From positions 62,001 to 126,000 of the forward strand of contig LVAS01000063.1 in NCBI GenBank assembly GCA_001603035.1: a DNA stretch of 64,000 bases. Direction: 5' to 3'. A program made the position numbers and the translations under genes. This document shows, in pieces, positions 57,567 to 63,793 of the stretch. Under the pieces are notes generated by a model that saw only the letters and a program-made list of their open reading frames with translations, was not told where the DNA came from and ran no database searches. Every line of letters begins with the position of its first letter. Position 1 is the stretch's first letter. Source of the stretch: Clostridiales bacterium Firm_13 (GTDB lineage Bacteria > Bacillota > Clostridia > Saccharofermentanales > Saccharofermentanaceae).

Positions 57567-57597
57567 GCCCGAAACCTTTGCGGCTTCGGGCTTTTTT
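57567..57597 (+). terminator. Intrinsic terminator of the tRNA cluster
   Basis: GCCCGAA (57567-57573) pairs with TTCGGGC (57585-57591) and is followed by six T. Confidence 0.88.
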
Positions 57598-57705
57598 GTG
57601 CTTTTTATCCGCTTGATTACAAGATGAAAAATGCCTGTAACCGACCTGTCAGATCGCTTTGATAGAATGAATCTGTATAAATCTGACAATATGCGGAGAA
57701 AGAGT

Positions 57706-59832
57706 ATGCAACGAGGAATCGAAAGGCGAGCAGGTGACAGAATGACGACGCAGAAGCGTCGCGGATGTTCCCTTGCCGGAATTTCGATACGCCGCCTGTT
57801 GTCGCGCAAACTTCTATCCCTTTTGTCGGCCGTTGTTCTGCTATTTACGTGCGTTTCTCCGTTCAGTCTTGCGGCTGCATTTACCGCGAATGCCACCGTA
57901 ACCGCGACTACCGCAAACGTTCGTTCCTCGCCCGGAACAACCGCTACCGTGATCGGACAAGTCGTAAAAGGGGATCGCGTTCTTGTTCTCGAAGAAGCTG
58001 TAATTACGGGAGATCCGAGTGGTTACAATTCCTGGCTCAAAATAACGGCGAATAGCAACGGCACAGATGTGATCGGATATGTCGTCAAGAGTTTTGTCCT
58101 CGTGGATGCGACCGCTCCCGATGCTTCTTTTGAATCCGCAATCGCCGCTTTCCCGGATTCCTACAAAGCATCTCTTCGATCTTTACATGCTGCGCATCCC
58201 AGCTGGCAGTTTGTCCCCGCTGCGATTCCTACCGATTGGGGTACAGTCGTCGCCGAGGAATCCAAAATCGGACGAAGTCTGATCACATCGACCGTAAATG
58301 ACGCGTGGAAATCGACGGATCCCGCCGCGTATAATTTGTTGACAGACACATTTATCGCATATGACGGAACGAGTTGGGTCAATACCACGCCGGGAGTGGT
58401 TGCTTATTATCTGGATCCAAGGAATTTTCTGAATGAAACGAATATATTCCAGTTTCTGTCTCTTTCTTACGACTCGAATACCCAAACATCGGCAGGCGTC
58501 GCCAAAATGCTCGCCGGGTCTTTTATGGCAAGCGGAACGATTAAAGATATGAACGGAACCGATGTATCCTATGCGGATACCTTCATCGCGGCTGCTTCGC
58601 TTTCCGGTTCGAGTCCGTATCAACTTGTTTCCAGGGTGCTTCAGGAAGTGTCCGCTTCCGGCAGTCGATCGACAAGCGGAACGGTACTTGGTTTTGAAGG
58701 CCTTTACAATTATTTCAATATCGGCGCGTCTTCTTCCAGTGATCCGGTCCTCCTTGGTCTTACTTTTGCGTCCTGCGGGTCTTCCGTGCCGTCTAAACCG
58801 ATGTCGGCCGCGGGGCAAGCGAAATATCTGATTCCGTGGAACTCCCCCTATAAAGCGATTCTTGGCGGTGCCAATTATATCTCCTCTAACTACATCCAAG
58901 CGGGACAGAATACGCAATATTTTCAGAAGTTTGACGTGAAAGACGACGGAAACGGGCTCTACTATCACCAATACATGACCAATATTCAAGCTATGGTCGG
59001 GGAGTCTTCGACTCTTTATAAAGCATATTCCAAGAACGGTCTCCTTGATTCGTCGCTGACTTTTCTCATTCCTGTTTACCAGAATATGCCGGATGCCACG
59101 GCGTTACCGGCGCAGACGGGCAATTCAAACAATTACCTCGCGACACTTGCCGTGGACGGATACGGAATTACTCCTTCCTTTGATCCAACGGTTTCGAGTG
59201 GATATTCTTTGATTGTTCCTTATCCTGTTTCGAGCGTCAATGTCACCGGAAGCGCGGTCTCGACGAAGGCATCGGTCAGCGGATTGGGCAATATCGGTCT
59301 GAATATCGGCGAAAATGACTTGGCAATTCAAGTCACCGCCCAAAACGGTTCCGTTCAGACCTATACACTAACGATTGTTCGCCAGGAGTCGACCGGCGAG
59401 AATCTCTATGCTACGAATTATCGCGTCAATTCGGATAATACCATTGCCGGTATTACTCCCGGAACATCGTATGCGGACTTTATGAATCAGTTCTCGCTTA
59501 TAAACGGCGGAACTCTTGCAATAACCAAAGCGACAGGGGAGACGATTTCCGATCTCACGAAGCCTGTTTCGACGGGAGATATCATAACTGTGTATAATGC
59601 CGCGGGTACGCCGGTCTATCAATATACTGTCTTAATCTACGGCGATTCGAATGGAGACGGGGACATCTCTGTATCTGATTTGACGCTAATATGCCGCCAT
59701 ATTCTTAAAAAATCCAACCTTACAACGAGTTACTTATCAGCTTCAGATGTGAATAAGGATGGAAGCGTATCCGTTTCCGACCTTACGCTCATTTGTCGGC
59801 ATATTCTTAAAAAATACACGATAACGCAATAA
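57706..59832 (+). CDS. Secreted N-acetylglucosaminidase with SH3b, cadherin-like and C-terminal dockerin domains
   Basis: A 708-residue secreted cell wall hydrolase (start at ATG 57706 behind GGAGAAAG; ATG 57742 is an alternative). Domains: signal peptide with Arg-rich n-region (to about 60), SH3b (about 62-132; TATTANVRSSPGTTATVIGQ), an endo-beta-N-acetylglucosaminidase domain (about 145-440; YYLDPRNFLNETNIFQF, VSRVLQEVSASGSR with the likely catalytic Glu, GLYNYFNIGASS), a cadherin-like beta-sandwich (about 478-560) and a type I dockerin formed by two Ca-binding segments DSNGDGDISVSD and DVNKDGSVSVSD. Unlike cellulosomal dockerins this one is on a peptidoglycan-type enzyme. The next gene, 12 bases on, encodes a cohesin membrane protein, its likely receptor. 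Confidence 0.9.
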   Translation: MQRGIERRAGDRMTTQKRRGCSLAGISIRRLLSRKLLSLLSAVVLLFTCVSPFSLAAAFTANATVTATTANVRSSPGTTATVIGQVVKGDRVLVLEEAVITGDPSGYNSWLKITANSNGTDVIGYVVKSFVLVDATAPDASFESAIAAFPDSYKASLRSLHAAHPSWQFVPAAIPTDWGTVVAEESKIGRSLITSTVNDAWKSTDPAAYNLLTDTFIAYDGTSWVNTTPGVVAYYLDPRNFLNETNIFQFLSLSYDSNTQTSAGVAKMLAGSFMASGTIKDMNGTDVSYADTFIAAASLSGSSPYQLVSRVLQEVSASGSRSTSGTVLGFEGLYNYFNIGASSSSDPVLLGLTFASCGSSVPSKPMSAAGQAKYLIPWNSPYKAILGGANYISSNYIQAGQNTQYFQKFDVKDDGNGLYYHQYMTNIQAMVGESSTLYKAYSKNGLLDSSLTFLIPVYQNMPDATALPAQTGNSNNYLATLAVDGYGITPSFDPTVSSGYSLIVPYPVSSVNVTGSAVSTKASVSGLGNIGLNIGENDLAIQVTAQNGSVQTYTLTIVRQESTGENLYATNYRVNSDNTIAGITPGTSYADFMNQFSLINGGTLAITKATGETISDLTKPVSTGDIITVYNAAGTPVYQYTVLIYGDSNGDGDISVSDLTLICRHILKKSNLTTSYLSASDVNKDGSVSVSDLTLICRHILKKYTITQ
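59641..59814 (+). repeat. Duplicated dockerin calcium-binding segment
   Basis: Two 24-residue segments, 59641-59712 and 59743-59814, share SVSDLTLICRHILKK. Each has an EF-hand-like loop with Asp at positions 1 and 5 and a final Asp. The Ser-Asp-Leu-Thr recognition residues are identical in both halves. Confidence 0.88.
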
Positions 59833-59843
59833 GGAGAACTGCA

Positions 59844-61880
59844 GTGAATAGAAAAAATAGGTTTATCGCATTCATAACAGCAATTTCAATATTTGTATTG
59901 ATTTCAATGCCTGTTTTTGCTTCTGCGTCCCTTACTCTGTCTGTTTCAGGAAAAACGGAAGTTGGTTCAACAATTGTAATTTCTGTTGTTCTAAACTCTT
60001 CCGATGTAGATTCCTATACAGGTTTTCAGGGATCCTTCGCATATGATTCGAATGCTCTTACCCTTGTTAAAGTCGAAGCCGGAAATTACGCTAAGAATAA
60101 TTTTACTCAGGATGGAAATAGTTTTTTGGATTATCAGGCAACTGTCCCAAACGGAGCGAAAATTATTAATTTGACTTTCTCGTGCAATGCAGCAGCAACC
60201 GCGAATGTCAGTTGTACAATTGATAAACTCGATAATAATGGAGTTTCTGCCGGATCCGCGTCCGGATCTACATCCGTCACAATTACAACTCCGGTTCCCA
60301 AATCTTCCAACTCGAATCTATCGAGCCTTCTCATATCACCCGGTACGCTTTCTCCCGCATTTTCGAAGTCCGTCACTTCCTATACGGCAAGTGTACCTGC
60401 AACGCAGAGCAAAATAACAGTCAGTGCGACACCGGAAGACGGTAAGTCGAGCGTAACGCTAAACGGTGTTCAGAATAAGCTTTCTTCGGGTGCCAACACG
60501 GTTAAAATTACCGTGAAAGCCGAAGACGGCTCCACGAAAGTCTATTCCATTGTCGTGACGCGAGAATCCGGTCCGACATCCACGCCGACGCCGACACCGC
60601 AGCCTTTACCCTTGATGACGTACGGCGGTTCCGACTATACGATTCTTCAACCGAGTGCGGGGGATTCGATTCCCGACGGATTTACGGCAACGACTGTCAC
60701 GTATAAGGGGGTCGCCATTCCTGCGGTCACAAAAAGTTTGGGAACATCTGTTGATCCGGTTGTGACGTATCTTGTTTTGCTTTCAGGCGATGCCGGAAAT
60801 GCCTTCTATGTATACCGCCCCGAGACCGAAAGCTGTTACCCCTATACCGTTCTTACTCTGCCGATCTCGAGTTACCAAGCGTTAAATGCTGAATCGACAG
60901 GGGGGATTCCCTCCGGTTACGAACTCTTTTCCTATACGTTAAACGGAGTTCCTGTCGATGCGTATCGATTGATCAGCCAACCGGATAATCCCCAGATTCT
61001 TCTTTTCTTGATGGATGTGAACGGAATCTCCGGATTCTATTCCTATGATTCGCAGACCGGACTACTTATGCCGTATCGCGGCGCGGTTACACTTGTCACA
61101 CCGACTCCCACACCTTCTCCGAGCCCTTCTGCGGCAATCTCCGATTCCGAGAAACCCACCGTGACGGATCAACCGATCCCTGGCGACAACCCCAAAGGCA
61201 ATCATCTGACCATTGCCTCTCTCACTGATTTTACGGATCCAATTGTATCGGCCGCATATTTGTTTTTTATTCTTTTCGTTCTCTTTCTGGTTCTAACGAT
61301 TATCTATCGCGTTAAATACAGAAAAATTGTCGAGGAGCGGGAAGAGTATGAAGAAGAGGAGGAAAGGCAGGTTACCGATCTAAATCGAGCGACAGAAGAG
61401 CCGATTCGAAGAACGGAATCTTCATATACCTCCTTTGTCGATCCTGATCTTTACCACGAGGAACCGCTTTCGCAGTCGGAAATAATCCCGGATGTACCGG
61501 ATTTACATCCGGATAAATCTCGAAGCAATCCTGCCGCGACGTCTCCGTTCGTGGCAAAAATGGAAACGATACGCCCGCAATTCGATTTTCCTGACGTCAC
61601 AAGACACGGGGATTCCAATGACGTTTTGGCGTCGGAATCGGCAAAACAAATCGTGCCTCAATCAAACATGACTGTCGCTGAACACGATAAGCTGAACCGC
61701 GATGAGAATCAGCAGAGAATTCCGGTGCGCCTGCAGATGGAATTGGATGAAGAACGTAAAAGAAATCGAGTTTCCGATCAAGAAAACTCGATTGACAGCA
61801 GGGACACCATGAAAAAGGAAGAGACATCGGCCCGCCCGAAGCCGATTGACCCGGACCAAGACCCGGACGACGGCGATTAA
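59844..61880 (+). CDS. Membrane-anchored cohesin-domain scaffold protein
   Basis: A 678-residue protein starting at GTG 59844 after AAGGAG. Order: signal peptide (1-27), cohesin-like domain (28-147; LTLSVSGKTEVGSTIVISVVL, YTGFQGSFAYDSNALTLVKVE, GAKIINLTFSC), cadherin-like beta-sandwich (158-241; SNLSSLLISPGTLSPAFS, VYSIVVTRE), Thr/Pro linker, an unrecognised domain (about 255-415), a second Pro/Ser linker, one transmembrane helix (468-490; AYLFFILFVLFLVLTIIYRV) and a 185-residue cytoplasmic tail rich in Glu, Asp and Arg. One cohesin on a membrane anchor, next to one dockerin enzyme, makes a minimal scaffold-client pair. The acidic tail suggests an intracellular partner. It ends with a four-base overlap with the converging nadE gene. 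Confidence 0.85.
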   Translation: MNRKNRFIAFITAISIFVLISMPVFASASLTLSVSGKTEVGSTIVISVVLNSSDVDSYTGFQGSFAYDSNALTLVKVEAGNYAKNNFTQDGNSFLDYQATVPNGAKIINLTFSCNAAATANVSCTIDKLDNNGVSAGSASGSTSVTITTPVPKSSNSNLSSLLISPGTLSPAFSKSVTSYTASVPATQSKITVSATPEDGKSSVTLNGVQNKLSSGANTVKITVKAEDGSTKVYSIVVTRESGPTSTPTPTPQPLPLMTYGGSDYTILQPSAGDSIPDGFTATTVTYKGVAIPAVTKSLGTSVDPVVTYLVLLSGDAGNAFYVYRPETESCYPYTVLTLPISSYQALNAESTGGIPSGYELFSYTLNGVPVDAYRLISQPDNPQILLFLMDVNGISGFYSYDSQTGLLMPYRGAVTLVTPTPTPSPSPSAAISDSEKPTVTDQPIPGDNPKGNHLTIASLTDFTDPIVSAAYLFFILFVLFLVLTIIYRVKYRKIVEEREEYEEEEERQVTDLNRATEEPIRRTESSYTSFVDPDLYHEEPLSQSEIIPDVPDLHPDKSRSNPAATSPFVAKMETIRPQFDFPDVTRHGDSNDVLASESAKQIVPQSNMTVAEHDKLNRDENQQRIPVRLQMELDEERKRNRVSDQENSIDSRDTMKKEETSARPKPIDPDQDPDDGD

Positions 61881-63793
61881 TTTGCTTTATGGCGATCAAG
61901 CCATATCTTTACCGAAGCGTCGCTCGGCATACGCCAATCTGCCCTGGGTGAAAGCGTGACAGATCCTACTTTCGGTCCATCCGGAAGACAAGACCTCTTA
62001 AATTGCTGCGCAAAAAACCGCTTCAGAAATACGGTCAACCATTTCTCAATCGTTTCGTCGTCATACGTGCCGGTAAAGGCGATCCGTGCGAGAAGAAAAA
62101 TCTTCTCCGGCGGGAATCCGAGGCGCATAAAATAGTACAAGAAAAAATCATGAAGAACGTAAGGCCCGACAAGATCTTCCGTAACCTGCGTGATCTGATC
62201 GTTCTTGTGCGGAAGCAGTTCCGGGCTTACCGGGGTTTCGAGAATATCCTTCAGAATACCAGAAATTGTATCGGAAGTGCTCGAAGCGGCGTAGGAAATT
62301 AGATATCGTACCAGAGTCTTCGGAATCGAACTGTTTACGGCATACATCGACATATGGTCTCCGTTATACGTAGCCCAACCGAGCGCCAATTCCGAGAGGT
62401 CGCCGGTGCCGATTACAAGCGCGTTGCATTGATTTGCCAAATCCATAAGTATTTGCGTTCGTTCTCGCGCCTGACTGTTCTCGTAGACAACATCGAGAAC
62501 GTGGGGATCTTGTCGTATATCACGAAAATGCTGATGCACAGCAGCTTCAATCGAAATCTCCAGAAAGGACGTACCGTAGGCGGCCGCCAACTGGCAAGCA
62601 TTGTCGTATGTCCGACTTGTCGTTCCAAATCCCGGCATCGTAACGGCGTGTATTCCTGTCAAGGGAAGATCAAGAAGAGCAAACGCACGTATACAGACAA
62701 GATAGGCGAGTGTGGAATCAAGCCCGCCGGACATACCGATTACGACGTTTCGTATACCGGTATGACTAAGACGCGTGGCAAGTCCCGTCGCTTGTATCGA
62801 CAGAATCTCTTCGCAGCGTCTTTCTCGCTCCGTCAAGTCGGACGGAACAAACGGATAGGGGTCTACCGAGCGTAAAAGGGTCGACGGTCGTGTACTTAAC
62901 GAAAAGACATGCCGAACATAATGCGCATCTTCGGAGGAGGACAGAGGATATGTCGTCTGTCGGATTCGCTCTTGCGTAAGGATATCGCCGTCCAGGTCCT
63001 GCAGAATCATTTCGGAAGAGAAAAGGCGAGACTCGGAAAGAACTTTCCCGTTCTCGGCAATTAAATTGTGCCCTGCAAATACCATGTCCGTCGTGGATTC
63101 GCCGAAACCGGCATCCGCGTATATATATCCGCAAATGCAACGGGCGGATAAAGAGGAGACGAGCGTTCTTCGGTAAGATGCTTTGGCGATCGTCTCGTCA
63201 CTTGCGGATAAATTTGCAATGACCGTCGCGCCGGCAACGGTATGGCGTACTGAAGGCGGTGAAGGGACCCAGAGATCCTCACAAATCTCGACGGCTAAGC
63301 GCAATCCGGGTATTTCGGAACAAATGAAAAGTTGATCGGTTCCCAGCTCATATTCGATTCCGCGAAGAATGACTTTGCGCGATCGGGAACCTGGCGCAAA
63401 ATGCCGCCTCTCATAGAATTCTCCGTAATTGGGTAAGTGCGATTTCGGGACAAATCCCAAGACTTGTCCGCCGGTGAAGACGGCAGCACAATTATAAAGC
63501 TTGTTATCCGCTTCGATCGGAAGACCGACAATCGAAAGAATCGGGAGATTGCGCGTGGAATCGACAAGCGAGAAGAGAGCGTCCAACGCACTTTCACGAA
63601 GCGCTCTTTGAAAAAACAGATCGCCGCATGTATATCCCGTCAGAGACAACTCCGGAAAGACGAGAAGACTGACCCCTCGCTCAGACGCTTCAACAATGCA
63701 TTTTTCGATCTCTTTGGCATTCATTACCGGATCGGCAACGGCAAGTTTGGGCGTTGAAGCAGCGACTCGAAAATATCCTTGGATCATATACAC
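61877..63793 (-). CDS. nadE: Glutamine-dependent NAD+ synthetase
   Basis: A 638-residue two-domain enzyme making NAD from nicotinate adenine dinucleotide, ATP and glutamine. The N-terminal amidase domain (about 1-275) has LLVFPELSLTGYTCGDLFF, PNYGEFYERRHFAPG and VEICEDLWVPSPP, covering the nitrilase-type Glu-Lys-Cys triad. The C-terminal synthetase domain has the P-loop GMSGGLDSTLAYLV, TMPGFGTTSRTYDNA, IGTGDLSELALGWATYNGDHMSMYAVN. I kept the GTG at 63793, which has GGCGGA five bases upstream; ATG 63787 is the alternative. The gene converges on the cohesin gene with a four-base overlap. Confidence 0.95.
   Translation of the reverse strand: MYMIQGYFRVAASTPKLAVADPVMNAKEIEKCIVEASERGVSLLVFPELSLTGYTCGDLFFQRALRESALDALFSLVDSTRNLPILSIVGLPIEADNKLYNCAAVFTGGQVLGFVPKSHLPNYGEFYERRHFAPGSRSRKVILRGIEYELGTDQLFICSEIPGLRLAVEICEDLWVPSPPSVRHTVAGATVIANLSASDETIAKASYRRTLVSSLSARCICGYIYADAGFGESTTDMVFAGHNLIAENGKVLSESRLFSSEMILQDLDGDILTQERIRQTTYPLSSSEDAHYVRHVFSLSTRPSTLLRSVDPYPFVPSDLTERERRCEEILSIQATGLATRLSHTGIRNVVIGMSGGLDSTLAYLVCIRAFALLDLPLTGIHAVTMPGFGTTSRTYDNACQLAAAYGTSFLEISIEAAVHQHFRDIRQDPHVLDVVYENSQARERTQILMDLANQCNALVIGTGDLSELALGWATYNGDHMSMYAVNSSIPKTLVRYLISYAASSTSDTISGILKDILETPVSPELLPHKNDQITQVTEDLVGPYVLHDFFLYYFMRLGFPPEKIFLLARIAFTGTYDDETIEKWLTVFLKRFFAQQFKRSCLPDGPKVGSVTLSPRADWRMPSDASVKIWLDRHKAN

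Follow-up and report, generated by a model that had tools for sequence, protein, structure and literature searches.

Two adjacent genes of the window, the 64,000-nucleotide stretch of clostridial DNA analysed here, form a genuine and conserved unit, with parts recognizable from sequence and predicted fold: a secreted SH3b/glucosaminidase that ends in a type I dockerin, and a single-pass membrane protein that carries a divergent cohesin. We favour, at a probability of about 0.72, the reading that the two products form a dedicated 1:1 cohesin-dockerin complex that would hold a peptidoglycan glucosaminidase at the membrane, in the manner of the staphylococcal SagB-SpdC pair. An earlier note on the same DNA had proposed a membrane scaffold that keeps a wall hydrolase near its substrate. 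The tether in that proposal is supported, but ‘scaffold’ is too strong a word, because one cohesin and normally one dockerin make a 1:1 tether.

Gene organization

The open frame of gene 1 extends from 57631 to 59832 on the plus strand, with plausible ATG starts at 57706 and 57742. Gene 2 begins with a GTG at 59844; because only 11 bases separate it from the gene 1 stop, and its AAGGAG ribosome site overlaps that stop, the glucosaminidase and the cohesin protein are likely encoded in a two-gene operon. Three tRNA genes lie upstream of the pair, and a stem with a T run at 57567-57597, judged by eye, resembles their terminator. The downstream neighbour (61877-63793) is encoded on the minus strand, opposite to the pair, so the unit comprises two genes only. 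The source genome is a MAG with a completeness of 80.8%.

Table 1. Features of the two-gene unit, in window coordinates.
Feature	Position	Strand	Basis
Gene 1: secreted glucosaminidase with C-terminal dockerin	57706..59832	+	domain searches
Predicted Sec signal peptide, ...LLSLLSAVVLLFTCVSPFSLAAA	57742..57879	+	sequence; N-termini of relatives
Bacterial SH3 (SH3_3) domain	57910..58098	+	E=3.1e-9
SagB/Atl-type (LYZ2) glucosaminidase domain	58132..59124	+	profile and alignment
Glu339, catalytic-Glu column of glucosaminidases	58645..58647	+	alignment
Cadherin-like beta-sandwich (PF12733), gene 1	59167..59385	+	E=7e-9
Type I dockerin, two complete Ca-binding repeats	59638..59808	+	Pfam and repeat alignment
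Junction: stop codon / AAGGAG ribosome site / GTG start	59829..59846	+	sequence
Gene 2: membrane-anchored cohesin protein	59844..61880	+	domain searches
Cohesin domain, residues 36-146	59949..60281	+	Pfam, family profile, predicted fold
Cadherin-like beta-sandwich (PF12733), gene 2	60336..60566	+	E=1.4e-13
Conserved two-repeat beta domain, residues about 250-430	60591..61133	+	family conservation
Predicted single transmembrane helix, residues about 470-488, then RVKYRK	61251..61307	+	hydropathy
Predicted charged cytoplasmic tail, 190 residues	61308..61877	+	hydropathy; motif comparison

A distant SagB relative that ends in a dockerin

The gene 1 product consists, in order, of a signal peptide, an SH3_3 domain, the glucosaminidase, a Cadherin-like domain and the type I dockerin; signal peptide and topology calls throughout this analysis derive from a hydropathy window. 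Its description in the earlier note, as a secreted SH3b/glucosaminidase ending in a complete type I dockerin, was borne out by profile searches (SH3_3, E=3e-9; Dockerin_1, E=7e-13), and the Cadherin-like beta-sandwich that had been ascribed to both proteins was recovered in each (Table 1).

The catalytic-domain profile matches SagB (6u0o), Atl and AtlE of Staphylococcus with E=2e-26 to 2e-30, the best matches being 6u0o and 6fxp (E=2e-30). Entry 6u0o is the SagB-SpdC structure. Glu339 falls in the conserved catalytic-Glu column of SagB/Atl/AtlE and is invariant across 30 aligned sequences. Against the model of SagB proper (NCBIfam NF052642) the protein scores 41 bits, with the cut-off at 425, and by sequence it is a distant SagB relative rather than SagB itself. 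Since homology to SagB/Atl/AtlE comes with retention of the catalytic Glu, peptidoglycan is its likely substrate. Membrane attachment as a lipoprotein was considered for the hydrolase and rejected: the gene 1 product has no good lipobox, and the N-termini of its relatives lack a cysteine at a consistent lipobox position.

The C-terminus scores 49 bits against the dockerin I profile (PF00404, cut-off 22.9) and 53.6 bits in a genome scan. Both repeats, DSNGDGDISVSD and DVNKDGSVSVSD, retain the Ca-loop residues D1, N3, D5 and D12, and the shared sequence noticed previously amounts to 15 residues, SVSDLTLICRHILKK, identical between them. Nine of the 15 codons differ synonymously; protein-level selection is therefore the simplest cause of the identity, and recent duplication of the repeat was rejected on the same count. 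Among 37 dockerins of the family, positions 10/11 are occupied by different residues in different lineages, and within a single dockerin the repeats match there in 78% of cases versus 21% after shuffling (0/5000), with shuffles that do not preserve phylogeny. This agreement fits a symmetric dockerin face adapted to one partner; in some lineages, gene conversion may lie behind it.

A divergent cohesin on a membrane anchor

The gene 2 product is arranged as a signal peptide, cohesin, Cadherin-like domain, an unnamed domain, a Thr/Pro/Ser-rich linker, a transmembrane (TM) helix and a charged tail. Taken alone, the window protein stays below the Pfam cohesin cut-off (PF00963, 24.1 bits), at 17.4 bits in the protein scan and 21.8 bits in the genome scan; as a single sequence it gives weak matches only against the PDB, and cohesin scores are low in several family members. 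Orthologues in the matching gene position range from below the cut-off to, for the best-scoring, above it. A profile built from 38 family members matches cohesins in the PDB (best E=1.2e-13), and the AlphaFold2 model adopts a cohesin jelly-roll at pLDDT 89, with the C. perfringens cohesins 2jh2 (E=2.5e-7) and 2vo8 (E=1.1e-6) as top Foldseek matches. On the strength of the orthologues, the family profile and the predicted fold, we accept the N-terminal domain as a divergent cohesin. The earlier assignment of a cohesin to a single-pass anchor is doubtful from the single sequence against Pfam and is secured by the family profile, the predicted fold and the orthologues over the cut-off, which place the anchor inside the cohesin family; a profile search placing it outside, named beforehand as the result that would overturn the reading, was not the outcome.

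All 56 anchors with a full reading frame, a set in which one locus (L038, identical to L115) is counted twice, show one TM segment near the C-terminus by hydropathy, and positive charge is higher after that segment than before it. The predicted orientation is N-out, C-in. Sortase anchoring was rejected: no LPXTG-like motif was seen by eye in the gene 2 protein, and a motif search gave one weak match among the 56 relatives.

Two features lay beyond the earlier note, the unnamed two-repeat domain (residues about 250-430) and the 190-residue tail. The former has neither a Pfam match nor a solved-structure match, and follows the pattern IPxGF...YLxxxxGxxGFYxYD. Tail lengths range across the anchors from 4 to 254 residues and reach at least 40 residues in 37 of the 56. 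The window anchor carries IPVRLxxE, common to relatives L116 and L119, and other lineages keep motifs of their own, such as PLPDFPEFPEKKPEP and PPKIRRVD. So long a cytoplasmic tail suggests a role beyond passive anchoring, and the charged tail with its lineage-specific short motifs may be a docking site for a cytosolic partner.

Conservation of the pair

Loci were drawn from relatives, from a class-wide sample and from named MAG records of an 84,980-species collection. In the raw tally of dockerin-bearing glucosaminidases, 57 were followed by a membrane protein, four by something else and four by no readable frame. One locus had been entered twice (L038 and L115), and another, L199, had been scored unreadable; its second gene overlaps the first, and the cohesin protein does come next. 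With these corrections, a TM protein is encoded next to 57 of the 62 distinct readable genes, on their downstream side, and in 51 of these cases it has a cohesin profile match; two loci cut by a contig end (L120 and L135) lie outside the count. The neighbourhood survey suggested in the earlier note thus finds the pairing strongly conserved, and its guess that related two-gene sets occur elsewhere proved right: pairs are present in 13 families of the class (f1-f4, f12, f18, f29, f38, f41, f54, f59, f67 and f73). Among the named records, those with the pair carry the titles Clostridiales, Eubacterium, Lachnospiraceae, Erysipelotrichaceae and Bacilli.

Five dockerin-bearing glucosaminidase genes have no adjoining partner: L185, where no frame follows within 1.15 kb downstream; L192, in genome G268; and L200 together with two tandem genes in L214, in genome G132. 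Genomes G268 and G132 are both dockerin-rich, and each has a proper pair elsewhere (L191 and L215, respectively).

A dockerin is present in 36 of 58 relatives, and 31 of these 36 have exactly one. In all 31 the single dockerin belongs to the glucosaminidase/cohesin-protein unit, counting four in which a contig end cuts the next gene (G011, G040) or the catalytic part (G035, G044). The genome scan of the window organism found one dockerin and two cohesin places; the cellulosome hallmark of a multi-cohesin scaffoldin with several dockerin enzymes was absent from it.

A sister locus in the same genome

A sister locus of the window’s own genome (L007:4610-7882, contig C10) encodes a second glucosaminidase of the family, from which the dockerin is absent and which has an apparent N-terminal TM segment. 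The next gene encodes a protein whose cohesin scores 26.3 bits, over the Pfam cut-off, and which runs off the contig. A fragment at the end of contig C24 (L151:7829-8455, minus strand), with the unnamed two-repeat domain, a TM segment and a short tail, is probably its other half. The genes around it are shared with the surroundings of the dockerin pair in other families of the order, which suggests that the sister locus occupies the equivalent position. That one locus has a dockerin and the other a membrane segment is consistent with the dockerin doing the tethering job. Since the sister partner keeps its cohesin with no adjoining dockerin, the cohesin-like domain may have some job besides dockerin binding.

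Co-divergence of dockerin and cohesin

In the 29 pairs having all domains, dockerin distances track cohesin distances with a partial r of 0.41 once the catalytic and both Cadherin-like domains are removed, the permutation shuffles being ones that do not preserve phylogeny. The corresponding controls gave 0.11 for the dockerin versus the partner’s Cadherin-like domain and 0.06 for the hydrolase’s Cadherin-like domain versus the cohesin. The excess over both controls favours a specific dockerin-cohesin pairing.

Proposed mechanism and alternatives

In the complex that we favour, the glucosaminidase would be exported by Sec, and its dockerin would fold with Ca2+ and bind the cohesin head of the single-pass membrane protein encoded by the adjacent gene. 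The docked enzyme would be kept close to the membrane’s outer face and would trim glycan strands, either nascent or in the inner wall, of the cell that makes it, by comparison with membrane-bound SagB and SpdC in Staphylococcus; the cytoplasmic tail would probably allow an intracellular partner to position or control the complex. The parts of this model that we infer are binding and its Ca dependence, the substrate, where the enzyme acts and what the tail does. Positions 10/11 of the dockerin, mostly alike within a protein and different between lineages, are as expected for a cognate dockerin face.

The membrane protein could instead be mainly a sensor, in which case the docked hydrolase would report the state of the wall through the TM helix to the tail, with tethering secondary. 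The prevalence of long tails whose short motifs are kept within lineages points in this direction, as does the contact of SpdC, the partner of SagB, with the kinase WalK (PMC12272431). However, the tails of about one third of the family, at just 4-35 residues, are too short for a signalling domain; signalling cannot then be the shared core function, and we consider a primary sensor unlikely. More improbable still is a weapon or scavenging device on the cell surface that lyses other bacteria, a cellulosome-like ‘lyticome’ directed at foreign walls. It has a model in ruminococcal cellulosomes, where dockerin-bearing wall hydrolases and lysozyme activity occur, and a lyticome has been proposed (PMC6403190), but the present anchor is predicted to lie in the cell membrane with no sortase motif, which would put the enzyme under the cell’s own wall; moreover, there is a single enzyme with a single cohesin and no array, and small genomes that have just one dockerin carry the unit repeatedly across relatives. 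We give equally little credence to a dockerin and cohesin that are both real and yet not mutual partners, the cohesin-like domain binding wall glycan or another protein. Its retention in the sister locus, where the hydrolase is without a dockerin, and the low cohesin scores of several members would suit that arrangement; near-universal adjacency, the single dockerin per genome and the specific dockerin-cohesin co-divergence argue against it.

Relation to known systems

SagB and its membrane partner SpdC are reported to cut nascent peptidoglycan from its lipid anchor (PMC12272431). As in S. aureus, the clostridial unit combines a LYZ2-family glucosaminidase with an integral membrane partner (PMC12272431); the partner there belongs to the CAAX-protease family, whereas here it is a single-pass cohesin protein with a predicted cohesin-dockerin link. 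If the proposed complex is real, Clostridia possess an equivalent of SagB-SpdC, likewise made of two proteins, whose joint is detachable and presumably depends on Ca.

With the cellulosome, the amylosome and the mucinolysome, the unit shares a type I dockerin on the enzyme and a cohesin on a surface protein. It differs from them in having one cohesin and one dockerin, no array and no foraging enzyme, and in its predicted TM anchor, where those systems use sortase or SLH anchoring. The closest solved folds to the window’s cohesin, the C. perfringens non-cellulosomal cohesins 2jh2 and 2vo8, are modules within secreted glycoside hydrolases and not parts of a membrane anchor.

The idea of a cellulosome principle used on the cell’s own wall, put forward in the earlier note, is supported, but it is not wholly without precedent, since dockerin-bearing wall hydrolases have been reported from cellulosomes (PMC6403190). 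A review mentions lysozyme activity in the R. champanellensis cellulosome, wall hydrolases that bear dockerins, and a proposed lyticome (PMC6403190), and a dockerin-bearing NlpC/P60 protein is known from R. flavefaciens (PMC6403190, PMC3573020). These too are peptidoglycan-type hydrolases bearing a dockerin; they are part of a large cellulosome, whereas here the pair stands alone in genomes mostly without another dockerin. Among the papers examined in a search of mostly open-access literature, none describes a stand-alone membrane cohesin-dockerin wall pair.

The general inference from cohesin-dockerin pairs is foraging of the cellulosome type, and a recent gut survey read the joint presence of the two modules as signifying cellulosome-like complexes (PMC12997984); if many genomes instead carry this single wall-enzyme pair, that conclusion is wrong for them. 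Recurrence across many families of Clostridia points to a plug-and-socket use in own-wall upkeep. It is possible, though doubtful, that such docking is an old and widespread housekeeping device of clostridial wall biogenesis, independent of foraging, and that cellulosomes are perhaps its elaboration.

Variant architectures

Two further loci bring dockerin and cohesin together. In one (L143:7711-14994), dockerin and cohesin occur in one chain of 2427 residues. In the other (L147:4523-7382), the gene for a subtilase-domain protein with a dockerin at its C-terminus is separated by 58 bases from a downstream cohesin gene, so that the two-gene arrangement is the same and the enzyme is different.
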